Positions 7,036 to 20,816 of a stretch of 64,000 bases of DNA are shown here, piece after piece (position 1 is the stretch's first letter; each line of letters begins with the position of its first letter). The position numbers and the translations under genes are program-made. A model generated the notes under the pieces. It saw only the letters and a list, made by a program, of their open reading frames with translations, did not search any database and was not told the DNA's origin. This stretch comes from Methylovorus glucosotrophus (GTDB lineage Bacteria; Pseudomonadota; Gammaproteobacteria; Burkholderiales; Methylophilaceae): assembly GCF_009858335.1 (NCBI RefSeq), contig NZ_VMSE01000001.1, positions 806,001-870,000 of the forward strand. The letters are read 5' to 3'.

Positions 7036-8322
7036 TTACAGTGCCCAGCTGTAAGCAACGCCCAGCGAATCCTGGTACATCTTGAGGTTGACGTCGCCAC
7101 CCCCAAACGCGGCAGGAATGGAGCCACTACCCTTGATTTCGTTTTCAAAGGCATGGGTATAGCTGAATGACAGCTCGCTGCTATTGGCAAATTTCCAGGT
7201 GGCGCCAAGGGAGACATGGTCTTCCACCACTGCCGGGGCCAGCGTATTGAACAAGGTCTGGCTGCTGGGGATGGGTTGGTTGACGTGGTTGTAACCTGCG
7301 CGCAGGGTCAGTTGTTCGCTGTAGGCATACAGCGCGCCCAGTTTGAAGACGGTGGCATCTTTCCAGCCAAAGCCTGCGCCGTTATCCGTACCTAGTTGCG
7401 CGGTAAAGAAGTTGGCGATGCTGGCGCCGACCGCATCGACCTCGCTATAGCGTATGCGCTGGATGTCGCCCGCCAGCGTGAGCGCAGGGGTGGCCTTGAC
7501 GGCAATGCCCACGCCAAAGTTGGCGGGAATGTCAAAATCGCCCTGTTCGGCAAACAGGCCTTTGTAGCGGTCAAACCTGGTCATGTAGGTGCGGGTCTGG
7601 TAATGCGCACCCAGGGTCACCTGGTCGTTGATCTTGCCTTGCCAGCCAAGATGCAGGCCTGCGCCGTAGGAGCTGTCTGCGCCTTTATTGGTGACATGGT
7701 CCGGCGATGATGAAAAGGAGCTATTGGCAAAGTTTTGCAGGCCCTTGGCTTCAAAACGCTGATAGGCCAGGTTGAGGCCGATACCTATGGATTGGGTCGG
7801 ACTCAGTTTCCAGGCAATGGTGGGCGTGACGAAGGCCTGAATGAAGTTGACCCCTACCCGGCTACCGGTGTTATTAAACAGGGGAAAGCCATTTTTGTAG
7901 TCGGTGTTCATGCCGCCATTGCCATACAGGGCGACACCGATGGTAGTGGTGTCACTCAGCTGCTTGCTGTAACCAAACTCCGGGATCAGAAAGTTCTTGG
8001 TGTCATTACCGTCGTACTTGCCATTGATGGGGAATGTACTGCCCTCGATTTCAGCATCGCGTACCGGTCTGAACCAGGTGGCGCCGATGTCCAGGCGATT
8101 GCCAATGGCGGCCAGGCCTGCCGGGTTGGCGGCGATGCTCAAGGTGTCTTGCGGCAATGCAATGCCGACGCCGCCCGCGCCTTGTGCCTTGACGCCATAG
8201 CCATGGGAAAAATAGCCATCGGTGGCGTGGGCCTGCAGGGGAATGGCTGTGCCCAGAGCCAGCCATAGTAAAGAAGACGAAGAGGCAGACAATGCCTGGA
8301 ATACCGGATGTGATTTGCTCAT
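7036..8322 (-). CDS. FadL/OmpP1-family outer-membrane transport protein
   Basis: The 428-residue protein starts with a signal sequence ending near LQAHA and then the FadL hatch-domain pattern ATDGYFSHGYGVKAQGAGG, with the asparagine-proline SIAANPAGLA that follows. The remainder is alternating beta-strand sequence with many Gly/Asn turns and a C-terminal aromatic-poor strand ending SWAL. FadL relatives carry long-chain fatty acids or aromatic hydrocarbons across the outer membrane; the ligand here is unknown. It is a separate unit after the terminator of the cysTWA operon. Confidence 0.87.
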   Translation of the reverse strand: MSKSHPVFQALSASSSSLLWLALGTAIPLQAHATDGYFSHGYGVKAQGAGGVGIALPQDTLSIAANPAGLAAIGNRLDIGATWFRPVRDAEIEGSTFPINGKYDGNDTKNFLIPEFGYSKQLSDTTTIGVALYGNGGMNTDYKNGFPLFNNTGSRVGVNFIQAFVTPTIAWKLSPTQSIGIGLNLAYQRFEAKGLQNFANSSFSSSPDHVTNKGADSSYGAGLHLGWQGKINDQVTLGAHYQTRTYMTRFDRYKGLFAEQGDFDIPANFGVGIAVKATPALTLAGDIQRIRYSEVDAVGASIANFFTAQLGTDNGAGFGWKDATVFKLGALYAYSEQLTLRAGYNHVNQPIPSSQTLFNTLAPAVVEDHVSLGATWKFANSSELSFSYTHAFENEIKGSGSIPAAFGGGDVNLKMYQDSLGVAYSWAL

Positions 8323-8376: not shown

Positions 8377-8410
8377 AAAAAAAAGAGGCTAGTACTTGCG
8401 TACTAGCCTC
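8377..8410 (-). terminator. Terminator of the cysTWA operon
   Basis: A perfect 11-base-pair stem (8385-8395 with 8400-8410, loop of four) is followed on the minus strand by eight consecutive T residues (8384 to 8377). It lies 50 bases after the cysA stop. This is a textbook rho-independent terminator. Confidence 0.95.
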
Positions 8411-8459
8411 CAGTGGTCTGGTTGGCCTGGGATTCAGGTCAGGTGTTTAGCTGGTGTGT

Positions 8460-9527
8460 TTAATTGGGCACATCCAGAAACACGCGGACATTGCGCGGCT
8501 GGATATACACCGCTTCACCTTGTTGCAGGGCCAGCTCGCGGAAACGTTCGCGAGTCAGCTCGGCTTCGACGATGCTCTGGTTGTCCTGGCGCTGCAGCTC
8601 GATGCGCACCAGTGGGCCGATGGCATTGATATAGTTGACCACGGCGCTGAATGCGGGCTGGGTGCCGCGCTCGCGCAGCACTTCAATATCATGTGGGCGA
8701 ACAAAGGCATGGGCAGGCGTGTTGTCGGTCTCGTGATGGTCGTCGATATCCAGTGCGAGCGTGTCGATATGCGCCTTGCCGGCGTGCACACGGCCATGGA
8801 ACTGGTTGACGTTGCCCAGGAACTTGTAGACGAAAGGCGAAGCCGGTTTGTCATACACCTCCTGCGGGCTGCCGATCTGCTCGATATTGCCCTGGTTCAT
8901 GACCACGATACGGTCGGCGACTTCCAGCGCCTCTTCCTGGTCGTGGGTCACAAATACGCTGGTGATGTGCAGTTCGTCATGCAGGCGACGCAACCAGCGA
9001 CGCAAGTCTTTACGCACTTTGGCATCCAGCGCGCCAAATGGCTCATCCAGCAGCAATACCTTGGGCTCCACTGCCAGGGCGCGGGCCAAGGCGATACGCT
9101 GACGCTGACCGCCAGAGAGCTGCGGTGGATAGCGGCCAGCCAGCCAGTCCAGCTGTACCAGCTCAAGCAGGGCATGCACGCGACGGTGGATTTCAGCCTC
9201 GGATGGGCGTGTTTTGCGTGGACGTACGCGCAGGCCGAAGGCTACATTTTCAAACACGGTCATGTGGCGGAACAGGGCGTAATGCTGGAACACAAAGCCG
9301 ACTTCGCGTTCGCGCACATCACGGCTGGTAGCGTCATTGCCATGAAACAGAATGCTGCCTTCATCGGCGGCTTCCAGACCGGCAATAATGCGCAGCAATG
9401 TGGTTTTGCCGCAACCGGACGGGCCGAGCAAGGCCACAAGTTCACCCGTAGGAACATCCAGGTTGATGTTGTTCAGGGCATTGAATTTGCCGAAGCGTTT
9501 ATGGATATTGCGAATTGCGATGCTCAT
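8460..9527 (-). CDS. cysA: Sulfate/thiosulfate ABC transporter ATP-binding protein CysA
   Basis: CysA hydrolyses ATP to drive sulfate or thiosulfate import through CysT and CysW. The 355-residue protein has Walker [13 protein letters not shown], the Q-loop [12 protein letters not shown], signature [15 protein letters not shown], Walker [13 protein letters not shown] and the switch His in [10 protein letters not shown]-terminal TOBE-like region starting near residue 240 includes FVRPHDIEV. It starts 11 bases after cysW and is the last gene before a strong terminator. Confidence 0.96.
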
Positions 9528-9538
9528 TGCGGCCTCTT

Positions 9539-10435
9539 TTATTCTTCAGAAGATTGTTCGGTAGTGCGTGCACTGCGGGCGGATTGCCATTCGATGAAGG
9601 TTTTCAGTGCGAGGGTGACCAGCGCCAGGAAAGCCAGCAGCGATGCCACGGCAAACGCGGCAGCGTAGTTGTATTCGTTATAGAGAATCTCGACATGCAG
9701 CGGCATGGTGTTGGTCAGGCCGCGGATATGGCCAGAGACCACCGACACCGCGCCAAACTCGCCCATGGCTCGGGCATTGGTCAGGATGACACCATACAGC
9801 AGGCCCCATTTGATATTGGGCAGGGTCACACGCCAGAGTATCTGCCAGCCGGAGGCACCCAGTACCAGGGCGGCTTCTTCTTCTTCCTTGCCTTGCGCCT
9901 GCATCAGCGGAATCAGCTCACGCGCCACAAACGGGAAGGTGACGAAAACGGTGGCCAGCACAATGCCGGGGATGGCAAAAATCACTTTGTAATCATGATC
10001 GATCAGCCATTCGCCAAACCAGCCTTGCAACCCAAAGATCAGTACATAGATCAGACCGGCAATCACCGGCGATACGGCAAATGGCAGATCAATCAGCGTG
10101 ATCAGCACGCTTTTGCCCTTGAAGTCGAATTTGGCAATGGCCCAGGCGGCTGCCACACCGAATACCAGATTCAGGGGGACGGAAATGACCGCAGCGATCA
10201 CGGTGAGCTTGATGGCGGACAACGCATCTGGCTCGACCAGGGCCGCGATATAGGTTTCAAAGCCCTTGCGCAGGGCTTCGGTAAATACCGCTGCCAGCGG
10301 AATGAACAGGAACAGGCTGAGGAACGCCAGTGCAATGGCGATCAATGACCAGCGTATCCACGCTGGTTCAGAGGTGGCGCGGCTGCGGGCAACCTTGGCC
10401 TGGTAATGACCGAGATGAGAAACAGTAGATGACAT
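9539..10435 (-). CDS. cysW: Sulfate ABC transporter permease CysW
   Basis: This 298-residue inner-membrane permease has about six transmembrane helices and the ABC-permease loop [20 protein letters not shown] (EAA motif) followed by [19 protein letters not shown]. The MGEFG and SGHIRG sequences are CysW hallmarks. It lies 27 bases after cysT and 11 before cysA, so the three are one transcription unit. Confidence 0.95.
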
Positions 10436-10462
10436 GCGTGCTTGCCTTTGACTTGGTATGTG

Positions 10463-11296
10463 TTATTCGGCGGATTTGGCGTTACGCTGGCTGCTCCACC
10501 ACTGCAGGCCATTGATCGCCAGCAACAGGATGAAGGAGATCACCAGCATGACCACGGCAATCGCGGTGGCACCGGTGTAGTCGTATTGCTCGAGCTTGGT
10601 GATGATGATCAGCGGTGTGATTTCAGACACCATGGGCATATTGCCGGCGATGAAAATCACCGAGCCGTATTCGCCAACGGCGCGGGCGAAGGCCAATGCA
10701 AAACCAGTGAGCAGGGCAGGCCAGATCGCAGGCAGAATCACCTTGCGGAAGGTTTGCCAACGGTTGGCGCCCAGACTGGCGGCGGCCTCTTCGGTTTCCG
10801 CTTCCAGATCTTCCAGCACGGGTTGCACCGTGCGCACCACAAACGGCAGGCCAATAAAGGTGAGGGCGACGACTACACCCAATGGGGTGAAGGCGACCTT
10901 GATGCCATGCGGTTCCAGCAATGAACCTATCCAGCCGTTGCCTGCATAGATCGCTGTCAGCGCAATACCAGCGACGGCTGTCGGCAGTGCGAAGGGCAGA
11001 TCTACCAAAGCATCCACCAGGCGTTTGCCGGGGAAAGTGTAGCGCACCAGCACCCAGGCAGTCAGCAGGCCGAATATCGCGTTGATGAAGGCGCCGATCA
11101 AGGAGGCGCCAAACGTCAGCTTGTAGGAGGCTAGCACGCGTGGCGCCGTGACGGTGGTCCAGAATTCGGCAAAGCTGAGTTCGGTGGTTTTCAGGAATGC
11201 TGCCCCCAGCGGGATCAGCACGATCAGGCTCAAATAGAGGATGGTGTACCCGAGGGAGAGGTTGAATCCAGGTAGAACGTGGTGTCTTTTCGCCAT
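10463..11296 (-). CDS. cysT: Sulfate ABC transporter permease CysT (CysU)
   Basis: The 277-residue permease has six predicted membrane helices, the EAA loop LGANRWQTFRKVILPAIWPA and the ARAVGEYGSVIFIAGN motif characteristic of CysT. It pairs with CysW. It is the first gene of cysTWA. A 185-base gap separates it from the EAL gene upstream. That gap holds a terminator for the preceding genes and an AT-rich element, so cysTWA probably has its own promoter. Confidence 0.95.
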   Translation of the reverse strand: MAKRHHVLPGFNLSLGYTILYLSLIVLIPLGAAFLKTTELSFAEFWTTVTAPRVLASYKLTFGASLIGAFINAIFGLLTAWVLVRYTFPGKRLVDALVDLPFALPTAVAGIALTAIYAGNGWIGSLLEPHGIKVAFTPLGVVVALTFIGLPFVVRTVQPVLEDLEAETEEAAASLGANRWQTFRKVILPAIWPALLTGFALAFARAVGEYGSVIFIAGNMPMVSEITPLIIITKLEQYDYTGATAIAVVMLVISFILLLAINGLQWWSSQRNAKSAE

Positions 11297-11481: not shown

Positions 11482-12351
11482 TCAAGCGGCGACGCGAATG
11501 GTGGGCTTGAAAACCGACACAGGTTGCAGTTCCTTTGCCGTGACTGGCTTGCCCAAGAAGTAACCTTGCAACAGGCTGGCGCCCGATTCAATGGCAATAT
11601 CAAATTGCGTCTGCGTTTCGATACCCTGAATCACTGGTTGCGTGCCCAGGTCGCTGATGATGCCGAGCAGTTTGGGGATGATCTTGCGTACGCGTGGGTT
11701 GCGTTCCGCTTCCTGAATCAACTGGATATCCAGTTTCACGAAATCAGGGGAGAGCGTCCACAAGCGATCCAGATTGGAATGCTTGCTGCCAAATCCATCA
11801 ATCGCGATCTTGTAGCCGCGATCGCGGTAGTTTTCCACGGCTTCCACCAGAGGCTTTTCCTGGTCAACTGCACTTTCCTGAATCTCAATCACCACGCGGT
11901 TGGTCGGCACCGAATTGCTGTGCAGAATGCGCTCAAACACCTTGCCATGGGCATTTACACTCGCCAGCAGCTTGGTGTGCACATTGAGGAACAACAGACC
12001 GTTTTCGGCATGCAGCTGGCGGAAATTCAGCACGTGCAAGGTACGGCTGACGCGGTCAAACTTCACCAGCTTGCCTGATTGCTCGGCGTAGTAAAACGCA
12101 AAGTGCGGGCTGACTTCCTGTACGCCACCCAGAGACGGGCGCAGGAAAGCTTCGTGGCCAAACAGGTCGCCTGCTTCGCTGTCATAAATCGGCTGGAAAG
12201 CCGTATGCAACTGAATACCCAGGAAGGTATTGCTGAACTCACCGCGTGACAGCTCATCCAGGCCATAATCGTCTAGGTCCAGATGCAGCGATTCGCGCAG
12301 TTGGGATTTCAGGGTCTCAAGATAACTCAGATCTTGTGGGGGAATACTCAT
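11482..12351 (-). CDS. Degenerate EAL-domain protein in the sulfate-transport operon
   Basis: The 289-residue protein has an EAL phosphodiesterase fold (about residues 45-275) and no signal peptide, GGDEF, PAS or membrane segment. Family landmarks can be aligned: E67-A68-F69 for EAL, N123, E156, K206, D208 and Q262 are present. However, the DDFG loop reads D185-G186-F-G, losing the second metal-binding aspartate, and AEGVE reads IQGIE, with Gln242 for the metal-binding glutamate. The domain is therefore probably unable to hydrolyse cyclic di-GMP and may instead bind it or act as a protein partner. The ATG at 12351 has AAGGAG upstream. It lies 12 bases after the CysP-like gene, so they are co-transcribed. 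Confidence 0.88.
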   Translation of the reverse strand: MSIPPQDLSYLETLKSQLRESLHLDLDDYGLDELSRGEFSNTFLGIQLHTAFQPIYDSEAGDLFGHEAFLRPSLGGVQEVSPHFAFYYAEQSGKLVKFDRVSRTLHVLNFRQLHAENGLLFLNVHTKLLASVNAHGKVFERILHSNSVPTNRVVIEIQESAVDQEKPLVEAVENYRDRGYKIAIDGFGSKHSNLDRLWTLSPDFVKLDIQLIQEAERNPRVRKIIPKLLGIISDLGTQPVIQGIETQTQFDIAIESGASLLQGYFLGKPVTAKELQPVSVFKPTIRVAA

Positions 12352-12363
12352 AGTGATGCTCCT

Positions 12364-13347
12364 TCATTTTGCGTAAATTTGGTCAAAGATGCCGCCATCT
12401 GCAAAATGCGTTTTCTGTGCTTTGGCCCAGCCGCCAAATACGTCTTCTACCGTAAAGAGGTCTATCGCCTTGAAGTCGGCCTTATGCTTGGCAGCCACGC
12501 TCTCCAGCTTGGGGCGCAGATAGTGGCGCGCTGCGATTTCCTGACCTTCTTCTGAGTACAGGTAATTCAGGTATGCCTCAGAAACTGCACGGGTATTGCG
12601 CTTGTTGACGACTTTGTCGACGACGCTTACCGGATTTTCAGCGAGGATGCTGGATGACGGATACACCACATCAAATTGATCATTACCCAACTCCTTCTTG
12701 ATCAGGAACACTTCATTTTCAAAGGTCAGCAAGACATCACCAATGCCGCGTTGCACAAAGGTCGTGGTAGCGCCACGGCCGCCGGTATCTAGCACAGGTA
12801 CGTTGCGGAACAGCTTGCCGACAAAGTCCTTGGCCTTGGTTTCGTCTGCGCCATTACGCACGGCATATCCCCAGGCGGCAAGGTAGCTGTAACGACCATT
12901 GCCGGATGTCTTCGGGTTCGGTACCACGACAGCAATCCCAGGTTTCACCAGATCGTTCCAATCCTGAATTTTCTTGGGGTTACCCTTGCGCACCAGAAAT
13001 ACCGTGGTGGAGGCCGTCGGGGAGCTGTTATAAGGCAGGCGTTTTTGCCAGTCCTTGGGGATCAGCTTGCCGCGCTCGTACAAAATATCAATGTCATTGC
13101 TCTGGTTCATGGTGATGACATCCGCATCCAGGCCATCGGCCACGGCACGCGCCTGCTTGCTGGAGCCACCATGGGATTGGTTGATGGTCACCGTCTCGCC
13201 GGTTTTTTGCTTCCAGTAGCTGGCAAATGCCGGGTTGAAATCCTTATAGAATTCGCGCGTCACATCATAAGAGACATTTAGCAGGGTAGTGTCAGCCCAG
13301 GCAGATTGTGAAAACAGCAGGGCAATGAGGGCGATGCGCTTGAACAT
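12364..13347 (-). CDS. cysP: Periplasmic sulfate/thiosulfate-binding protein, CysP-like
   Basis: The 327-residue product has a signal peptide (MFKRIALIALLFSQSAWA) and the mature start ADTTLLNVSYDVTREF of the sulfate-binding family. Ligand-site strings are [49 protein letters not shown] and DTGGRGATTTF. The segment TMNQSNDIDIL and the DTGGRGATTTF block resemble CysP (thiosulfate-binding) more than Sbp, while the C-terminal FGGWAKAQKTHF is Sbp-like. I chose the ATG at 13347, which has GGAG five bases upstream; the frame extends to 13398. It is the first gene of a leftward unit with the EAL gene, diverging from epsC. Confidence 0.92.
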   Translation of the reverse strand: MFKRIALIALLFSQSAWADTTLLNVSYDVTREFYKDFNPAFASYWKQKTGETVTINQSHGGSSKQARAVADGLDADVITMNQSNDIDILYERGKLIPKDWQKRLPYNSSPTASTTVFLVRKGNPKKIQDWNDLVKPGIAVVVPNPKTSGNGRYSYLAAWGYAVRNGADETKAKDFVGKLFRNVPVLDTGGRGATTTFVQRGIGDVLLTFENEVFLIKKELGNDQFDVVYPSSSILAENPVSVVDKVVNKRNTRAVSEAYLNYLYSEEGQEIAARHYLRPKLESVAAKHKADFKAIDLFTVEDVFGGWAKAQKTHFADGGIFDQIYAK

Positions 13348-13413
13348 GCGGACTCCGTGAATGTTGTATTTGGAATGGACGCCATCATAATCAGCCATTG
13401 TAATAATGTAAAA

Positions 13414-13437
13414 GAATATAAAAATATATTTATATTC
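13414..13437. promoter_or_regulatory. Perfect inverted repeat upstream of the cysP-like gene
   Basis: GAATATAAA at 13414-13422 and TTTATATTC at 13429-13437 are perfect complements with a six-base spacer. It lies 67-90 bases before the cysP-like start and shares the run TTTTTATAT (minus strand) with elements ahead of cysT and the yezD-like gene. An activator or repressor site is likely; the protein is unknown. Confidence 0.45.
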
Positions 13438-13511
13438 ATAAAATTTATTATAAGTCGTTCAATTTGTCATGAAACAATGCATTTTTTAGCGTAGCTTTAC
13501 TTCTATAAACC

Positions 13512-13540
13512 TTGCGGTTTTTTAAATAACTAAATAGAAT
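13512..13540 (+). promoter_or_regulatory. Candidate promoter of epsC-encapsulin-desulfurase operon
   Basis: TTGCGG (13512-13517) and TAGAAT (13535-13540) are separated by 17 bases, giving a plausible sigma-70 promoter. Just downstream, TATAAC-TGATT-GTTATA (13546-13562) forms an inverted repeat at the expected transcription start. No experimental support is available from sequence. Confidence 0.4.
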
Positions 13541-13586
13541 TAGCTTATAACTGATTGTTATAGCCAGTTGCTGACCGGACAACCGG

Positions 13587-13624
13587 AAGCCAGTGCGCCT
13601 CATGCCGAGGCCGCTGGCTTTTTT
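13587..13624 (+). terminator. Terminator-like hairpin in the epsC leader (possible attenuator)
   Basis: AAGCCAG (13587-13593) pairs with CTGGCTT (13614-13620) and CCTC (13598-13601) with GAGG (13607-13610), with a small internal loop, followed by a T run (13619-13624). It sits 33 bases before the epsC ATG and after the candidate promoter, so it would stop transcripts before the operon unless bypassed. GCCAG also occurs upstream at 13563-13567 and could compete for CTGGC. The structure is seen; the regulatory role is inferred. Confidence 0.55.
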
Positions 13625-13657
13625 GCTTTTTAGGGCCGCCAATTTGGGAATAACGAG

Positions 13658-14662
13658 ATGACCGATGCAGTGGATTTGACAGTCGCCCCAGCGGGTGCTG
13701 ATTGGGATATTGCCAGTATTGTGGATGCACTTCGCACGGTGCGGCTGAATGCGCTGGAGCATCGCAAGCGCAGGCAAAACCCGCCAAAACTGCCTTCGCG
13801 CAAAGCGCTGGAGGCTATTGTGGATGGCCTGGCCGCCGCCTTGTTCCCCAACCGTCTCGGCTTGCCCGATTTGAAAGAAGACGGTCTCGATTATTTTGTC
13901 GGCCACACCCTGGATGTCGCATTAAAGGACCTGCATACGCAAATTCGGCTGGAGCTGGCATTTGCGTCTACTCTTGAGTCTGACAACACGGATGAGGAGG
14001 CGCCTTCAGCGCGTGCCATCGTCAGTCAGTTTGCTGCCGCGCTTCCCGGCATTCGCCAAACCCTGGATACCGATATTCTTGCAGCGTATGAGGGCGATCC
14101 CGCTGCGCGTAGCGTCGATGAGGTGCTCGTGTGCTATCCCGGTATCACCGCCATCATTCACCACCGTCTTGCCCATCAGCTCTACAAACTGGGTGTGCCA
14201 CTCGTCGCGCGCATGATTGCCGAGATTGCCCATTCACGTACTGGCATTGATATTCATCCCGGCGCCACGATTGGCGACAGTTTCTTTGTCGATCATGGCA
14301 CCGGAGTGGTAATCGGTGAGACCACCATCATTGGCAATCACGTACGGCTTTATCAGGCAGTGACCTTGGGCGCAAAGCGCTTTCCTGCGGATGAAAGTGG
14401 TGTGCTTATCAAAGGCAATGCACGCCATCCAATTGTGGAAGATGACGTCGTCGTTTATGCCGGCGCGACGATACTGGGCCGCATCACCATCGGACGCGGC
14501 TCCTCCATCGGTGGCAATGTCTGGCTGACCCACAGCGTGCCACCAGGCAGCAATATCACCCAGGCGCAAATGCGCAGCGGTGTGCTGCCTCTGCCAGAAG
14601 GCCAGATGGCCGCCAATGCCATTCCAGGCGCCAATCCCTCTGGGCCTGCCCAATACGGCTAG
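13658..14662 (+). CDS. epsC: Serine O-acetyltransferase, EpsC-type
   Basis: This enzyme makes O-acetylserine from serine and acetyl-CoA, the carbon skeleton for cysteine. The 334-residue protein has a long helical N-terminal domain and a C-terminal left-handed beta-helix with hexapeptide repeats: GIDIHPGATIGDSFFVDHG, GVVIGETTIIGNHVRLYQ and YAGATILGRITIGRGSSIGG. The DHGTGVVIGE catalytic block is intact. The length and N-terminal region fit the EpsC/SAT long form rather than E. coli CysE. It is the first gene of a rightward unit with the encapsulin and the cysteine desulfurase, 49 bases before the shell gene. Confidence 0.93.
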   Translation: MTDAVDLTVAPAGADWDIASIVDALRTVRLNALEHRKRRQNPPKLPSRKALEAIVDGLAAALFPNRLGLPDLKEDGLDYFVGHTLDVALKDLHTQIRLELAFASTLESDNTDEEAPSARAIVSQFAAALPGIRQTLDTDILAAYEGDPAARSVDEVLVCYPGITAIIHHRLAHQLYKLGVPLVARMIAEIAHSRTGIDIHPGATIGDSFFVDHGTGVVIGETTIIGNHVRLYQAVTLGAKRFPADESGVLIKGNARHPIVEDDVVVYAGATILGRITIGRGSSIGGNVWLTHSVPPGSNITQAQMRSGVLPLPEGQMAANAIPGANPSGPAQYG

Positions 14663-14711
14663 GCCTGTTATACCCCTTGAAACACTAAACCACACTAGAC
14701 AGGAGATTTAA

Positions 14712-15629
14712 ATGGCAGATATTCATGAAGGACAAACCGCACTTGGAGATGTAGCGGCCCGTACGCTAGCCAATGCCACCAAAACGGTGCCCATGCTCAG
14801 CACGATTACACCGCGCTGGCTGGTGCATTTGCTGCAATGGGTGCCTGTAGAAGCTGGTATCTATCGCGTTAACAAGGCCAAGAATCCGAATGCGATTGAA
14901 GTGGATTGTTCCAACAAGGATGAGCGCGAGTTGCCCGCCACCTTTGTTGACTACGAAGAATGGGGCCGTGAGTATGTGTTGAACGCCGTGAATACCGTGG
15001 TCGATGTACACACCCGCGTGTCCGATCTGTACAGCAGCCCGCACAACCAGATCCGCGAACAGTTGCGCCTGACCATTGAAACAGTCAAAGAGCGTCAGGA
15101 AAGCGAACTGATCAACAATGCCGAATATGGCTTGCTGAACAATGTAGCTGACTCGCAAAAGGTAAAGTCCCGTACTGGCGCTCCGACGCCAGATGATCTC
15201 GACGAGCTGATCAGCAAGGTATGGAAAGAGCCAGCCTTCTTCCTGGCCCATCCACAAGCAATTGCGGCTTTTGGTCGTGAGTGCACACGTCGTGGCGTGC
15301 CTCCACCTACCGTGGCGATGTTTGGCTCGCAGTTCCTGACATGGCGTGGTATTCCGCTGATTCCTTGCGACAAGCTGAAGATCACCAAGGGCAAAACCAA
15401 TATTCTGCTGTTGCGTACGGGTGAAAGCCGTCAAGGTGTGGTGGGCTTGTATCAGCCTAATCTGCCAGGTCAGCAAAGCATGGGCCTGTCGGTGCGCTTC
15501 ATGGGTATCAACCACAAGGCGATTGCTTCCTACCTCGTGTCCCTGTATTGCTCGGTCGCTGTGCTGACCGATGATGCGATTGCCGTGCTGGAGAATGTCA
15601 GCGTGGACAACTACTATGACTACAAGTAA
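14712..15629 (+). CDS. Family 2A encapsulin shell protein (SrpI-like)
   Basis: The 305-residue protein is recognisable as a family 2A encapsulin, the HK97-fold shell protein typified by SrpI of Synechococcus elongatus. Characteristic blocks are LSTITPRWLVHLLQWVPVEA at about 30-49, TTVVDVHTRVSDLYSS-type sequence (here NTVVDVHTRVSDLYSSPHN), ELINNAEYGLL, GRECTRRGVPPPTV, LTWRGIPLIPCDKL and GESRQGVVGLYQP. No cyclic-nucleotide-binding domain is inserted, which separates it from family 2B. Such shells form icosahedral nanocompartments; in known systems the cargo is a cysteine desulfurase and expression responds to sulfur supply. The ATG follows AGGAGA by six bases. The next gene overlaps its 3' end by 14 bases. 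Confidence 0.95.
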   Translation: MADIHEGQTALGDVAARTLANATKTVPMLSTITPRWLVHLLQWVPVEAGIYRVNKAKNPNAIEVDCSNKDERELPATFVDYEEWGREYVLNAVNTVVDVHTRVSDLYSSPHNQIREQLRLTIETVKERQESELINNAEYGLLNNVADSQKVKSRTGAPTPDDLDELISKVWKEPAFFLAHPQAIAAFGRECTRRGVPPPTVAMFGSQFLTWRGIPLIPCDKLKITKGKTNILLLRTGESRQGVVGLYQPNLPGQQSMGLSVRFMGINHKAIASYLVSLYCSVAVLTDDAIAVLENVSVDNYYDYK

Positions 15630-17487
15630 CTTCAACGATCTTTCGGCCTTTGAGCCGGAAGCCATTCTGGCTGCATTGCCGGGGGAGCATCCCCGCATGG
15701 CGGCGGGCCTGGCAGTTGGCCGGGCCGCATCAGAGTCCGGACACCTGGATGTGAGCGAGCTGGCACGTATTGCCAATGAGCTTTACGCCGAGGGTTTTCC
15801 CGCAGGAGCGCCCTTTGGCAGTACGCCAGATGTGTACACCACCACTGCTTTGCCCGATAGCTCAGGCCAGGCAGCCGGGATTCGTACCGGCTCACCAGGC
15901 CCTGCTGCTCCAGTGACTTCGCATCCACATGCCTCTCCGGTCGGACTCGAAAGCATTCAGTTAACGGATCCATCCTTGGTTCCGCCGCAACTGGATATCG
16001 CAAGTGCAGCGGCGACAGCGAGTGCTGGGCAATATCAACCTGCACTGAGCGTGCCATTTGGCGGCGATCTGGAGATCAGTCGTTTGCTGGGCAGCGTTGA
16101 GATTCCCTATGCGAGCGATCTGCAGGGCTTGCTGACACCGTCGAGTACGCCTGCATCAACGGCGAGCGCGCAGCCTGCGGTCAGTCCGTATTACTTTTTG
16201 CAGGGTGCATCGGTCAATTCACTGAATCCTGGCGTGCAGCAAGGCGGCGCTTTGGCACCTTCGGCGCATCCTCCCTTTGATGCGAATCTGGTCCGCAAGG
16301 ATTTTCCGATTCTGCGTGAGCAGGTGAATGGCCGTCCACTCATCTGGCTGGACAATGCGGCGACCACGCAAAAGCCACAAGTCGTTATCGACCGCCTGGC
16401 GTATTTCTATCAGCATGAAAACTCCAATATTCACCGGGCCGCGCATGCGTTGGCTGCGCGCGCTACCGATGCGTATGAGGAGGCGCGCGAAACAGTGCGT
16501 CGATTCATCAACGCACCTTCGGTCAATAATGTGGTGTTTGTGCGCGGGACGACCGAAGCGATTAATCTGGTGGCCAAAACCTGGGGCAAGAAGCATCTGC
16601 GCGAGGGAGATGAGATCCTGATTTCGCATCTGGAGCACCATGCCAATATCGTGCCCTGGCAGCAGTTATGTCAGGAAACCGGTGCCAGGCTGCGTGTGGC
16701 CCCCGTGGATGATAGTGGCCAGGTATTGCTTGATGAATACCAGAAGCTGCTGACTTCACGTACCAAGCTGGTGTCATTCACCCAGGTTTCCAATGCACTG
16801 GGTACCGTGACGCCCGCCCGCGAAATGATCCAGATGGCGCATGCCGCTGGCGCAAAAGTCCTGCTGGATGGTGCGCAGTCCGTATCGCACATGCGTAGCG
16901 ATGTGACGGCCCTCGATTGTGACTTTTTTGTGTTCTCTGGTCACAAGGTGTTTGGCCCGACGGGCATTGGTGCGCTCTATGGCAAAGCGGATGTGCTGGC
17001 CGAGATGCCCGCATGGCAAGGTGGCGGCAATATGATTCAGGATGTCACCTTTGAAAAAACCGTGTATCACGAAGCGCCCGCCAAGTTTGAAGCTGGCACG
17101 GGCAATATCGCCGATGCGGTGGGCATGGGGGCGGCGCTGCAATATGTAGAGCGTCTGGGTATCGACAACATTGCACGGTATGAGCATGACTTGCTGGTGT
17201 ATGCCACGGCTGCCATGTGCAAGGTGCCGGGCTTGCGCCTGATTGGTACCGCACGTGAAAAGGCCAGCGTGTTGTCCTTCAGTTTGCCTGGGTATAAGAG
17301 TGAGGAAGTCGGTGCCGCCTTGAACGAAGAGGGCATTGCCGTGCGCTCCGGGCATCATTGCGCTCAGCCTATTCTGCGTCGCTTTGGTGTGGAAACGACG
17401 GTGCGACCATCGCTGGCGTTTTACAACACCGCACAGGAAGTCGATGTGATGGTGGATGTATTACAAAAGCTGGCCCGTACCCGCTAA
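15616..17487 (+). CDS. Encapsulin-cargo cysteine desulfurase with disordered N-terminal extension
   Basis: Residues 226 to the end (from VRKDFPILREQ) are a SufS-type, type II cysteine desulfurase: NAATTQKP, PLP-binding Lys444 in FSGHKVFGPTG, and catalytic Cys582 in RSGHHCAQP. It frees sulfane sulfur from cysteine as an enzyme persulfide. Residues 1-225 are Ala/Ser/Pro/Gly-rich and mostly low complexity, with a short helical start (FEPEAILAALPGEHPRMAAG) and a hydrophobic SPYYFLQ at 190-196. This layout matches the cargo of family 2A encapsulins, where the extension directs encapsulation. I start at the ATG at 15616, inside the shell gene's last codons; the frame extends to 15571. A bidirectional terminator follows. 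Confidence 0.94.
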   Translation: MTTSNFNDLSAFEPEAILAALPGEHPRMAAGLAVGRAASESGHLDVSELARIANELYAEGFPAGAPFGSTPDVYTTTALPDSSGQAAGIRTGSPGPAAPVTSHPHASPVGLESIQLTDPSLVPPQLDIASAAATASAGQYQPALSVPFGGDLEISRLLGSVEIPYASDLQGLLTPSSTPASTASAQPAVSPYYFLQGASVNSLNPGVQQGGALAPSAHPPFDANLVRKDFPILREQVNGRPLIWLDNAATTQKPQVVIDRLAYFYQHENSNIHRAAHALAARATDAYEEARETVRRFINAPSVNNVVFVRGTTEAINLVAKTWGKKHLREGDEILISHLEHHANIVPWQQLCQETGARLRVAPVDDSGQVLLDEYQKLLTSRTKLVSFTQVSNALGTVTPAREMIQMAHAAGAKVLLDGAQSVSHMRSDVTALDCDFFVFSGHKVFGPTGIGALYGKADVLAEMPAWQGGGNMIQDVTFEKTVYHEAPAKFEAGTGNIADAVGMGAALQYVERLGIDNIARYEHDLLVYATAAMCKVPGLRLIGTAREKASVLSFSLPGYKSEEVGAALNEEGIAVRSGHHCAQPILRRFGVETTVRPSLAFYNTAQEVDVMVDVLQKLARTR

Positions 17488-17541
17488 GCAAGCTTCTCCA
17501 GCTGTGCTACTCAAGTAGCAAAACAAATCAAGCAGCAAAAC

Positions 17542-17580
17542 AAAAAGCCGGTGGCGTATTGCCATCGGCTTTTTGTTTTG
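17542..17580. terminator. Bidirectional terminator between desulfurase and molbindin genes
   Basis: AAAAGCCGGTGGC pairs with GCCATCGGCTTTT around a GTAT loop with one G-T pair, flanked by A runs on the left and T runs on the right. It serves the rightward encapsulin operon and the leftward yezD-to-mop group, which converge here. Confidence 0.88.
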
Positions 17581-17600
17581 CTTAATTTAAACGCTGAGAT

Positions 17601-17816
17601 TTATATCTTGGCGATGGAAACTTCGGTGGCCTTGATCAGCGCCAGCACTTCCGTTCCTACTTGCAGATTCAACTCGGTGACTGAACGGGTGGTAATCACC
17701 GACGTGACAATGCCGCCAGCCGTTTCTATATCCACTTCGGATAATACCGGTCCGGTGAGAATTTCAACAATGCGTCCCCGTAGCTGGTTGCGCACATTAA
17801 TGGCTTTGATGGTCAT
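17601..17816 (-). CDS. Molbindin-type single Mop-domain protein
   Basis: The 71-residue product is one Mop domain: SARNQLRG-like start (NVRNQLRGRIVEI), then GPVLSEVDIETAGGIVTSVIT and VGTEVLALIKATEVSIAK. Molbindins bind molybdate or related oxyanions in oligomers in the cytoplasm. It is the last gene of the leftward yezD-porin-sbp-DUF2325-mop group. The oxyanion theme fits, since molybdate and sulfate are chemically similar and share transporter types. Whether it buffers molybdate or senses another oxyanion is open. Confidence 0.88.
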   Translation of the reverse strand: MTIKAINVRNQLRGRIVEILTGPVLSEVDIETAGGIVTSVITTRSVTELNLQVGTEVLALIKATEVSIAKI

Positions 17817-17871: not shown

Positions 17872-18213
17872 TCAGGCTGCGATGGCCCAGTGATGTTTGC
17901 CGGATGGACATTCGCCCTCCGACAGGTTGTCCAGATTCAGCTTTTCCAATCTGGCCTGCAGAGCAGCCGGACCATTAGGCGTGTAGACAATCCGCACACC
18001 ACGTTTGGCTGCCGTCTGCTTGATTTTGTGGGTAAAGGTGTGGCTGATCCAGTTGGTGACTAGCACAATGAGTTCTGTGTTGTGTGGGATGGTTTTCTTG
18101 CCATCGCCGACTTTGCGCCCAGACCAATGGTCAATGCGGGTAATGCCGTGCTGGGCTAGCACTTGTTTAATGCCGTCTATCTGGTCGCCGCCTACTATCA
18201 ATGCTGTACTCAT
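17872..18213 (-). CDS. DUF2325-family protein
   Basis: The 113-residue cytoplasmic protein begins STALIVGGDQIDGIKQVLAQ and continues DHWSGRKVGDGKKTIP, then ELIVLVTNWISHTFTHKIKQ, the pattern of DUF2325, a Rossmann-like domain of unknown function. The C-terminus GECPSGKHHWAIAA has a single cysteine followed by two histidines. It is 55 bases before mop and 68 after the Sbp-like gene. No function can be assigned; its place in an oxyanion-uptake operon suggests a linked role. Confidence 0.8.
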   Translation of the reverse strand: MSTALIVGGDQIDGIKQVLAQHGITRIDHWSGRKVGDGKKTIPHNTELIVLVTNWISHTFTHKIKQTAAKRGVRIVYTPNGPAALQARLEKLNLDNLSEGECPSGKHHWAIAA

Positions 18214-18281: not shown

Positions 18282-19292
18282 TTACTTCAGGTAAATCTGG
18301 TCAAACGTACCGCCGTCAGAAAAGTGCGTTTTCTGCGCTTTTTGCCAACCACCGAATTCACTATCCACCGTTACCAGATTCAGCTTGGGGAAGTTCTTTT
18401 CGTACTTCTTGGCTACGGATTCCAGGGTAGGGCGGTAGTAGTTCTTGGCCGCAATTTCCTGACCCTCTTCGGTATACAGGTATTGCAGGTAAGCTTCAGC
18501 TACGGCACGGGTACCACGCTTGTTGACCACTTTGTCGACCACGGTGACAGGCGGTTCAGCCAGGATGGACAGCGAAGGCACTACGATTTCGAACTTGTCC
18601 GGACCGAGTTCCTTTTGTGCCAGGAAGGCTTCGTTTTCCCAGGCCAGCAGAACATCGCCGATGCCACGTTCAACAAAGGTGGTGGTGGCACCACGTGCAC
18701 CGGAATCCAGTACCGGCACGTTCTTCAGGATTTTGCCGATGAACTCGCGGGTCTTGGTTTCGTCGTTGTTAAACTTGCGCTGACCATAGGCCCATGCTGC
18801 CAGGTAGTTCCAGCGTGCGCCGCCAGAAGTCTTGGGGTTGGGGGTCACGACCGAGATGCCAGGGCGTGCAATGTCATCCCAATCCTTGATGTTTTTCGGA
18901 TTACCCTTGCGCACCAGGAATACGATGGTGGAGGTGTAAGGCGAGCTGTTGTGTGGCAGGCGTTTTTGCCAATCCTTTGGGATCAGCTTGCCTTTCTCGT
19001 ACAGCGCATCAATGTCATACGCCAGTGCCAGGGTAGCAACGTCAGCTTCCAGGCCATCGATGATGGCACGACCTTGTTTGCCAGAGCCGCCATGTGAAGC
19101 CTTGATGGTGACATTGTCGCCGGTCTTGGCTTTCCAGTATTTGGCAAATGCCGCGTTGAAGTCCTGATACAGTTCGCGGGTTGGGTCGTAAGACACATTC
19201 AGCAGGCTGACGTCGGCCGCCGACGCCGCCAGAGGCGCCGCCAGGGCAAGCGCTACTGCAGCGCTACGCAAATGTTGAATAATCGTTTTCAT
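18282..19292 (-). CDS. sbp: Periplasmic sulfate-binding protein, Sbp-like
   Basis: The 336-residue product has a signal peptide ([19 protein letters not shown], then ASAAD) and the full Sbp pattern: [76 protein letters not shown] and [16 protein letters not shown]. These match sulfate-specific Sbp more closely than CysP. The ATG at 19292 has AGGAAA upstream; the frame extends to 19313. It is a clear paralogue of the CysP-like protein at 12364-13347 but has no permease genes beside it and may share CysTWA. Confidence 0.93.
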
Positions 19293-19322
19293 TGATATTT
19301 TCCTGTCTTTCAAGTTGTCTGG

Positions 19323-20756
19323 TTAAAACTGGAACTGCAAACGGCTGAACAGAATGCGCTCGTCGTCACGGTCGCGGATGTTGGCAAAGGTGCCAGCACC
19401 GCCGTCAAACTTGGTCTGCTCGTAGTTGGTTGCCAGGCGTACCCATTGGTTGAGGTACCAGTTCACACCAATACCCCAGGTTTTTGCTTCCTTGGCGCTG
19501 GTGGTCGGGTTGGCAAAACGTGCAGCCACGCCAGAAGCGGCTGTACCGAATGCGCTGCTGTCGATGCTGTTTTCCTGGTAGCGGGCCACCAGTTCCCATG
19601 CGCCCCAGCCATCCTTGCCGGTTTCAAATGGGTTCTTCGGCTTGACGCTCTTGAAGGAAGCATCTTCGCCGGTCAGTACCCACGAGGCTGCGATCTGCCA
19701 GGCATTATTCTTCAGGGTGTCATGCACAGTATTTGCGGCATTGCGAACTTCCTGGGAAGTGCGGGCGTATTCGGCAATCACACCGAATGGGCCGTAGTAG
19801 TAGTAAGCCTGTGGCGAAACGCGTACGCGACTACCATCACCCACGGTACCTGTGGTGTATGTGAAGAAGTTTAGCTGTTGCGAGGGGGTTCTGTAGTTTG
19901 GCAATGCACCTGTGGCAGAGTCGGTGTATGTCCCGGCAATACCGAAGCCCAGACCTTCCAGCACGCTATCGCTACCCTTGAATGGGGTAGTGAAAATGCG
20001 GGCGGTGTAATCTTTGTCATTGTCAGTGTCGATGCGTGTGTTTTCTTCGCCACCATCTACTGTGCCGTTGAAAACGCCTACTGCGTAGCTCACTTTGCTA
20101 TCCAGTACATCGCCATAAATCGAGGCGCCCAGGCCGCGGTTAGGCAGGAAGTTGTTGCTGACATAACTGCGCTCGATGAACTTGATGTCGCCGCCGCCTT
20201 GCAAGCGCTCCAAGCCTACGAACGGCTTGAATTTACCAGCGCGGATTTTGAATGCTGGATCAAAGCGAGCATCGAAATAGGCATCAATGACGCGCGAGTT
20301 ATTGCTGGATGGTGATGTTGCATTGTTATTCAATGTTTCACCAAACTCAGGGGTGAACCGGAAATCATATTTGCCAAACAAGGTGCCCTGGAATGTGGGG
20401 CGGATACGGCGAGCGGTAAAGCCGTCATCGGAATTTGCGGTATGATCAGGCTTGTCAAAGTGACGGTAATCCAGCTGAATCAAGCCCTTCAGGCTGTATT
20501 CAAACTGACCATCGGCAGACTTGATACCGAAACCCGTTGGGCCGGCTACGACGACGGGTGTTTCTTTCTTTTTAGCGGTTGCTTCTTCAGCAGCGATTTC
20601 ATTTTTACGCTCCAGGACTTTGATCTTTTGATCAAGGTCCAGAATGGTTTGACGCAATGCTTCGATTTCTGGATCGGCAGCGAATGCACTGTGCGTGGCC
20701 AGTAAAAGCCCGCTAGCGAGCAGTGCGGAAGTGATCTTGTTGATTTTGAATTGCAT
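19323..20756 (-). CDS. OprO/OprP-family phosphate-selective-type porin
   Basis: The 477-residue protein has a signal peptide ending HSAFA, a short coiled coil (about residues 27-60, EIEALRQTILDLDQKIKVLE), then a porin barrel starting YSLKGLIQLDYRHF. Typical strings are RRIRPTFQGTLFGKYDFRFT, AYFDARFDPAFKIRAGKFKP and the last strand ending SRLQFQF. OprP relatives are anion-selective trimers with an N-terminal coiled coil. Lying 30 bases before sbp in an oxyanion operon, this one is probably a sulfate channel of the outer membrane; that is inference from context. Confidence 0.88.
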   Translation of the reverse strand: MQFKINKITSALLASGLLLATHSAFAADPEIEALRQTILDLDQKIKVLERKNEIAAEEATAKKKETPVVVAGPTGFGIKSADGQFEYSLKGLIQLDYRHFDKPDHTANSDDGFTARRIRPTFQGTLFGKYDFRFTPEFGETLNNNATSPSSNNSRVIDAYFDARFDPAFKIRAGKFKPFVGLERLQGGGDIKFIERSYVSNNFLPNRGLGASIYGDVLDSKVSYAVGVFNGTVDGGEENTRIDTDNDKDYTARIFTTPFKGSDSVLEGLGFGIAGTYTDSATGALPNYRTPSQQLNFFTYTTGTVGDGSRVRVSPQAYYYYGPFGVIAEYARTSQEVRNAANTVHDTLKNNAWQIAASWVLTGEDASFKSVKPKNPFETGKDGWGAWELVARYQENSIDSSAFGTAASGVAARFANPTTSAKEAKTWGIGVNWYLNQWVRLATNYEQTKFDGGAGTFANIRDRDDERILFSRLQFQF

Positions 20757-20816
20757 GATGAGCCCCTGTAAATTTATTGCTTCCGGCGGTCCGGTCAGGT
20801 CATCGATATTTTTAAA

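Follow-up and report, generated by a model that had tools for sequence, protein, structure and literature searches.

A two-hairpin leader RNA, likely an antitermination switch, ahead of the encapsulin operon of Methylovorus glucosotrophus

The window analysed here is the whole stretch of 64,000 nucleotides (nt) covering positions 806,001 to 870,000 of contig NZ_VMSE01000001.1 (assembly GCF_009858335.1) in the 2.9 Mb genome of Methylovorus glucosotrophus. Three rightward genes at 13658-17487 encode a serine O-acetyltransferase (SAT), a family 2A encapsulin shell and a cargo cysteine desulfurase, and a two-hairpin RNA element lies directly in front of them. On balance we read this element as an antitermination switch by which a sulfur compartment is probably made only in a certain sulfur state. 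The element shows covariation and precedes the operon in many species, and links of the operon to cysK and to sulfate importer genes recur. An earlier note on this DNA had described the three tightly packed genes, whose positions were confirmed, without mentioning the element, which was found during a search for signals shared between the divergent sulfate-binding protein gene and the SAT gene.

13564..13624 (core from 13570), plus strand: leader RNA element, two hairpins and a T-run (model R1, covariation, folding)
13658..14662, plus strand: long-type SAT (EpsC-like), 334 residues (NF041874; PDB 3f1x)
14712..15629, plus strand: family 2A encapsulin shell protein, 305 residues (NF041162, PF19307, SrpI 6x8m)
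15616..17487, plus strand: cargo cysteine desulfurase, 623 residues from its probable start (NF041166; conserved start)
17535..17581, plus strand: terminator-like hairpin of 20 pairs after the cargo gene (hairpin search)

The encapsulin operon proteins are of a known type, and SAT as an accessory of such operons has already been published (PMC8346489). The surprising part is the RNA leader with its regulon, which was not found in the sources searched. In a literature search that left supplements and most subscription papers outside, the ten-letter element core was absent in its RNA spelling, the only one searched, encapsulin together with cysteine synthase was met only in two papers of 2021, and encapsulin together with sulfate transporter only in an off-topic context.

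Structure and distribution of the leader RNA

The full element reads GCTGACCGGACAACCGGAAGCCAG..CTGGC-T6 (13570-13624) and stands just 5' of the SAT gene. Its first hairpin, CCGG-ACAA-CCGG at 13575-13586, abuts the terminator hairpin at 13587-13620, with the T-run at 13619-13624. The leader folds at -30.4 kcal/mol (z -3.2) and scores 66.3 bits (13564-13623) with the leader model R1, whose training alignment includes this copy and many of the 62 loci scored as strong below.

When 43 of the 62 distinct leader copies are aligned, two helices emerge. In this alignment 99.6% of 559 cells are paired, against at most 55% for slid structures; the latter control preserves the relatedness of the sequences, and the structure it tests came from those same sequences. 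Changes on both sides of a pair occur in 35 cells compared with 6.5 in shuffles, a comparison that overstates the significance of the covariation because the leader sequences are related. The first hairpin has an extended form, GCY-GA-CCRG-N4-CYGG-A-RGC. Among 50 distinct hairpins, 38 have T-A at pair 9:25 and 6 have C-G, and the outer pairs 7:27 and 9:25 each hold in 46, with changes from T-A to C-G and from G-C to A-T.

This extended form would compete with the terminator foot for the same RGC bases. A sulfur-linked signal, either a small molecule or a protein, would hold the extended hairpin, the terminator could then not close, and RNA polymerase would continue into the operon. Antiterminators of the RAT type (BglG/LicT) also have a hairpin sharing bases with the foot of the next intrinsic terminator, but they differ from this leader in sequence, loop and internal-loop pattern, and control a sugar regulon where the setting here is sulfur. 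Small riboswitch attenuators, e.g. preQ1-I, resemble it in having a short 5' leader hairpin that overlaps a terminator. No Rfam 15 family matches the leader: the whole window gave no match at the gathering score, the region 13200-14000 gave none up to E 10, and in two relatives only sub-threshold matches to unrelated families were obtained.

Boxes of the form TTGAC[AT] were located in 70 leaders, mostly of Methylococcales, and 32 of the 35 occurrences lie 39-53 nt 5' of the element, which is therefore expected there near the 5' end of the transcript. A further upstream hairpin, GTTAGC/GCTGAC, was tried and is not claimed; it forms a 6-bp helix in 9 of the 70 leaders where 0.85 are expected, and the rest resemble shuffles.

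A set of encapsulin loci and two genome samples were used for the distribution of the element. From a scan of named genomes for shells the best 80 of 535 confirmed loci were taken, which biases the scan to close relatives, and these loci come mainly from Methylophilaceae, Nitrosomonas and Methylococcales. Together with 21 loci from a relatives search, and after removal of 8 duplicates, 93 distinct loci resulted, including 12 Nitrosomonas-type loci (eight under the name Nitrosomonas and four others). The relatives sample consists of 61 genomes, 22 with a shell and 39 without, and the second sample covers the order of genome G196, 12 with a shell and 29 without, giving 102 genomes of which 34 are shell-bearing and 68 shell-less. 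A copy was called strong at 43 bits or more with R1 in the locus set, and at 54 bits or more in whole-genome counts.

Strong copies are present in 62 of the 93 loci, 65 copies in total, and the next matched gene is SAT for 36 of them, cysK for 21, the shell gene for 7 and a FadL-like gene for one. An operon gene (cysK, SAT or shell) thus follows, in sense, after 64 of the 65 copies. In two loci, L092 and L115, both cysK and the shell gene are preceded by a copy. Within 700 nt on the upstream side, the closest matched gene is divergent for 25 copies and co-directional for 9; 31 copies have none there. Where it is divergent it encodes a sulfate-binding protein in 20 of the 25 cases, and the terminator cannot serve an upstream gene in that orientation.

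Strong copies were also counted in whole genomes. In the relatives sample, 17 of the 22 genomes with a shell and 1 of the 39 without have one; for the order of G196 the counts are 9 of 12 and 1 of 29, respectively, which makes 26 of 34 with a shell and 2 of 68 without overall. A strong copy is missing from the shell genomes G019, G022, G032, G040, G043, G430, G454 and G458. Both shell-less genomes with a strong copy carry apparent gene remnants after it: in G020 (L139) an SAT-like fragment directly follows the element (54% over 39 residues, E 1.4e-4), and in G442 (L184) cysK-like and cargo-like fragments follow. Judged from these fragments, the encapsulin operon has apparently been lost in both, with the leader left behind. 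When 369 genomes were drawn evenly from the class, only the host genome and G196 had the element at E 1e-4 or better.

Two further places in the window carry a weaker or partial form of the leader:

8383..8432, minus strand: weaker leader copy with terminator, between cysA and a FadL-like gene at 7036-8322 (R1, 33.7 bits)
20778..20799, minus strand: first hairpin without terminator, 23 nt before the ATG of a porin gene at 19323-20756 (pattern match)

The gene at 7036-8322 is FadL-like by PF03349. A copy before the FadL-like gene is also present in G001, G002 and G012, as well as in G196, where the gene is weakly similar (30%), and weak R1 copies were scored in G003 and G026. Genes resembling sigma-54 activators follow a copy in G465 and G461, and PF00158 was matched for the G461 protein, the one examined. 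The terminator-less hairpin pattern occurs in 12 of 18 porin leaders (0.08 in shuffles), 10-35 nt before the first following ATG. Among nine other genes of the loci the pattern is found in 0 to 2 leaders; it also occurs in 5 of 93 shell leaders and in 7 of 91 cargo leaders (0.6 and 0.4 in shuffles). As R1 gives the porin hairpin 14.1 bits, less than several unrelated places of the window, the porin link rests on the pattern and on paired changes.

An aptamer-like hairpin of 20 nt joined to a terminator could represent very small regulatory RNAs of a new class, a proposal for which we favour neither yes nor no. Such an RNA would sense sulfur status in methylotrophs and methanotrophs and gate a whole sulfur regulon composed of encapsulin storage, cysteine synthesis, an outer-membrane protein of the FadL type and a sigma-54 regulator, together with the porin next to the sulfate-binding protein, where a terminator-less form lies close to the start codon.

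Operon proteins and their sulfur context

The SAT that heads the operon scores 164 bits with the EpsC model NF041874 (cut-off 150) and 165.6 bits with the cysE model TIGR01172 (cut-off 210.65). Being under the latter cut-off it is a long-type SAT and no CysE equivalog, in agreement with the EpsC-type assignment in the earlier note. Its best solved relative is PDB 3f1x (E 5e-82). One solved SAT match comes from an organism that we take to be Planctomyces limnophilus, and a literature search found nothing on an SAT of that species. The window SAT and the housekeeping CysE have in common the segments IHP, DHG and RHP, which are presumably catalytic. The housekeeping enzyme is a second SAT encoded elsewhere in the host genome, over the cysE model cut-off; beside its gene lie IscS (734 bits, cut-off 643), a second desulfurase-like gene and a member of the Rrf2 family that falls slightly short of the IscR cut-off (204.7 vs 207.55). 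The C-terminal tail of the window SAT was considered as proof against cysteine synthase binding and dropped, as the housekeeping CysE also lacks a terminal Ile.

With a threshold of at least 352 bits, long-type SAT was found in 22 of 22 shell genomes and in 2 of 39 shell-less genomes of the relatives sample. It stands immediately 5' of the shell gene in all 22 of these shell genomes and in 80 of the 93 loci. PMC8346489 reports 1281 family 2A desulfurase operons, in which SAT and rhodanese are the most enriched accessory genes. At locus L137 of G045, a genome without a shell, a long-type SAT overlaps cysA beside sbp-cysT-cysW; a link of SAT to sulfate import thus also exists without an encapsulin.

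The shell protein was tested against hidden Markov models and scored 544.8 bits with NF041162, the family 2A shell model (cut-off 380), and 358 bits with PF19307; its match to the solved SrpI structure PDB 6x8m has E 3e-154. It also exceeds the cut-off of the family 2B model (428.4 vs 400 bits), with the 2A score 116 bits higher. The cNMP-binding domain that separates 2B from 2A was not matched, and the sole Pfam match is SrpI-like, at residues 55-299. These results bear out the SrpI-like family 2A assignment of the earlier note. The window shell is the one SrpI-like shell found in the host genome. By alignment offset, F263 and Y274 are the counterparts of F262 and Y273 of SrpI, which lie near cargo density in the Synechococcus elongatus particle (PMC8049743), and both are invariant in the 9 shells of alignment A1. 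A phage capsid identity was rejected: among the matches listed, those in the phage collection were either two Acinetobacter phage records or capsids of about 25% identity.

The two phage records (H16 and H17, 'Acinetobacter phage MD-2021a') are 330-380 kb long and carry a family 2A shell 73% identical to that of the window, with sufS adjoining; they may be mislabelled chromosome pieces. In a similarity-ranked, and for this reason biased, list, the organisms whose shells come closest to the window shell mostly oxidise methanol, methane or ammonia and belong to different orders, which may reflect transfer among them or a shared lifestyle.

The third gene product scores 909.3 bits with NF041166, the family 2A cargo cysteine desulfurase model (cut-off 800; scored from 15571), and its SufS-like part is aligned from about residue 215 of 623, following a long low-complexity N-terminus as had been described. 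The earlier note was also right that this gene starts inside the shell gene, while the start itself should probably be moved. Comparison with relatives points to 15616 (623 residues) in place of the first in-frame ATG at 15571 (638 residues). Of the 22 shell loci in the relatives sample, 21 have an ATG that begins 13 nt ahead of the final base of the shell gene, the exception being L044. In the scan of named genomes, 73 of 80 loci have this ATG together with a cargo gene; 8 loci are common to both sets. The frame from 15616 overlaps the shell gene by 14 nt.

The N-terminus of the window cargo holds, by eye, the segments LARIANELY and VSPYYFLQG. Two published encapsulation motifs, in relaxed form, were found in 63 and 70 of 83 loci, respectively (0.12 and 0.62 in shuffles; 10 of the 93 loci were dropped). 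The patterns were relaxed after a first look, as the strict form (36 and 12 of 83) missed clear cases. The cargo is predicted to be packed in the shell.

A close known system is SrpI/CyD of S. elongatus (PMC8049743), which is like the window in its shell (77% identity) and in its sulfur context, and for which packing of the desulfurase in the shell has been reported. CyD is also SufS-type, and its long N-terminus has motifs like LARLANEFFS and AASPYYFLDG. Features described here for the window are the SAT-headed operon, the 14-nt overlap, the sulfate-import surroundings and the RNA leader. For the operons of PMC8346489, the passages at hand mention no leader RNA, cysK-SAT overlap or importer-embedded gene order.

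A cysK-like gene lies directly 5' of SAT in 26 of the 93 loci, and in all 26 the two overlap by 4 nt, exactly ATGA. These copies are 79-85% identical to a reference from the shell-less genome G013, which scores 460.8 bits with the cysK model (cut-off 350.95). The coupling to O-acetylserine production proposed in the earlier note gains support from this overlap. For the flanking sulfate importers, which the note had seen as feeding both SAT and compartment, a recurrent link was obtained. The importer genes of the window are:

12364..13398, minus strand: sulfate-binding protein 1, divergent from SAT (TIGR00971, 475 vs 155.5 bits)
8460..11296, minus strand: sulfate importer genes cysA, cysW and cysT (cysT model-tested; cysW and cysA from sequence and place)
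10463-11296, minus strand: cysT (TIGR02139, 434.8 vs 246.1 bits)
18282..19313, minus strand: sulfate-binding protein 2 (TIGR00971, 510.6 vs 155.5 bits)

Sulfate-importer genes, counted within 6 kb with at least 50% identity for importer subunits and at least 55% for binding proteins, are present at 47 of 63 relative loci having full flanks and absent from 16. As a control, none were found in 21 neighbourhoods of the housekeeping cysE (the host and 20 shell-bearing relatives). By these counts the link of a family 2A encapsulin and its own cargo desulfurase to sulfate import is more than a local accident. In 7 of the 12 Nitrosomonas-type loci, shell and cargo stand inside a co-directional run from a sulfate-binding protein to cysT-cysW-cysA; three others are cut by contig ends and two are otherwise arranged.

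Going by published work on relatives, SAT and cysteine synthase would produce cysteine, the shell would let cysteine in, the cargo would strip its sulfur, and the sulfur would stay inside as a reserve. The storage idea stems from an Acinetobacter baumannii encapsulin of the same family, which Benisch et al. reportedly described in 2024 as sulfur-storing. Acinetobacter baumannii encapsulin work is also what PMC12407261 cites for sulfur storage.

Alternative explanations

The element could be an entire stand-alone small RNA of about 60 nt that acts elsewhere, the operon having its own promoter after it. The promoter-like box upstream of the element in relatives and the terminator at its end would suit a small RNA gene, as would the finding that the 5' hairpin with its flanks is the most conserved part. 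We regard this as unlikely, since an operon gene is next after 64 of 65 copies and the position is kept while the partner varies (SAT, cysK or shell). The double copies of L092 and L115, before cysK and again before the shell gene, point the same way, and the terminator-less form in porin leaders most simply acts in cis. Little credence is given to the view that the first hairpin is a DNA operator for a repressor or activator, with a terminator that only shields the operon from stray transcription. In its favour, inverted DNA sites also stay symmetric when they change, the inner stem has just one wobble pair, and 19 of 20 family loci have a second conserved block in their divergent promoter region. 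The U-G wobbles seen at pair 31:52 in 8 sequences speak for RNA in the terminator stem only. Against an operator stand the sense orientation of all 64 operon copies, the conserved asymmetric flanks, with GA opposite A, and the direct contact of the hairpin with the terminator hairpin.

Regarding the proteins, it is doubtful, though it deserves to be taken seriously, that the compartment does not store sulfur. The cargo is SufS-like, hand-over of sulfur to an acceptor is discussed in PMC8346489 and PMC8049743, and in S. elongatus encapsulated CyD is about sevenfold more active than free CyD. On the other side, the genome has IscS, the second desulfurase-like gene and the Rrf2/IscR-like gene beside the housekeeping cysE, and the operon accompanies genes of cysteine synthesis and sulfate import; no search aimed at rhodanese or SufE entered this weighing. 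That SAT is a passenger, or a second cargo of the shell, rather than the supplier of O-acetylserine appears quite improbable given its occurrence in shell genomes and the exact ATGA overlap with cysK, and no shared tail motif was seen by eye in 22 SAT sequences. In favour of a passenger, the N-terminus and C-terminal tail of SAT vary, and in G022 the long-type SAT is the only SAT match of the genome, so that it can serve as a plain housekeeping enzyme.

A number of observations weigh against an antitermination switch on a storage operon. No strong copy was found in 31 of the 93 loci, including all 12 Nitrosomonas-type loci, so such operons do not all require the switch, though the upstream sequence is truncated at some of the 31. 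The upstream gene is co-directional for 9 of the 65 copies (SAT itself 5 times), where the terminator could end the upstream transcript. The G446 copy lies close to a partial shell gene without being 5' of it. The outer pairs 7:27 and 9:25 each fail in 4 of 50 hairpins. The minimum-energy fold consists of the short hairpin and the full terminator, the extended hairpin not being formed, and no consensus -35 box was found in the window leader. In S. elongatus, knock-outs of shell and cargo had no growth defect even under sulfur starvation (PMC8049743). With these points counted, an antitermination switch controlling a sulfur-storage operon is still the likelier reading of the leader.

Neighbouring genes and biological meaning

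Several other features of the sulfur island were noted. An EAL-domain protein (11482-12351, minus strand) lies between sulfate-binding protein 1 and cysT and is conserved in the family. Acidic residues present in a canonical EAL paralogue have been lost from it, with DDFG changed to DGFG and AEG to IQG. The Nitrosomonas-type counterpart beside the shell has lost the EAL motif itself, and the counterpart in L042 retains DDFG and AEG. In most of these loci the protein probably regulates the sulfur island without being catalytic. Four shell-less genomes of the family have an orthologue of the EAL gene, and in the three examined the sulfate genes are kept together with cysK.

A DUF2325 protein (17872-18213, minus strand) accompanies the sulfate-encapsulin genes in many Methylophilaceae and Nitrosomonas-type loci. 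Between the operon terminator and this gene, an open reading frame of 71 residues (17601-17816, minus strand) resembles a molybdate-binding protein, presumably of the TOBE/Mop type. The conserved block of the divergent promoter region (13399-13657) is ATAT-N8-ATTCTTTTAC on the minus strand; it was found in at most 8 loci in ten shuffled sets, a control in which relatedness is uncontrolled, and is operator-like in appearance.

The signal of the leader, once found, would tell when the encapsulin compartment is used. The gene order cysK-SAT-shell-desulfurase suggests newly made cysteine as its feed, and the importer-embedded order of the Nitrosomonas-type loci ties the encapsulin to sulfate uptake. 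Should the hairpin prove to be a ligand-binding RNA, it would probably rank among the smallest known, and it would mark a whole sulfur regulon in methane and methanol oxidisers.

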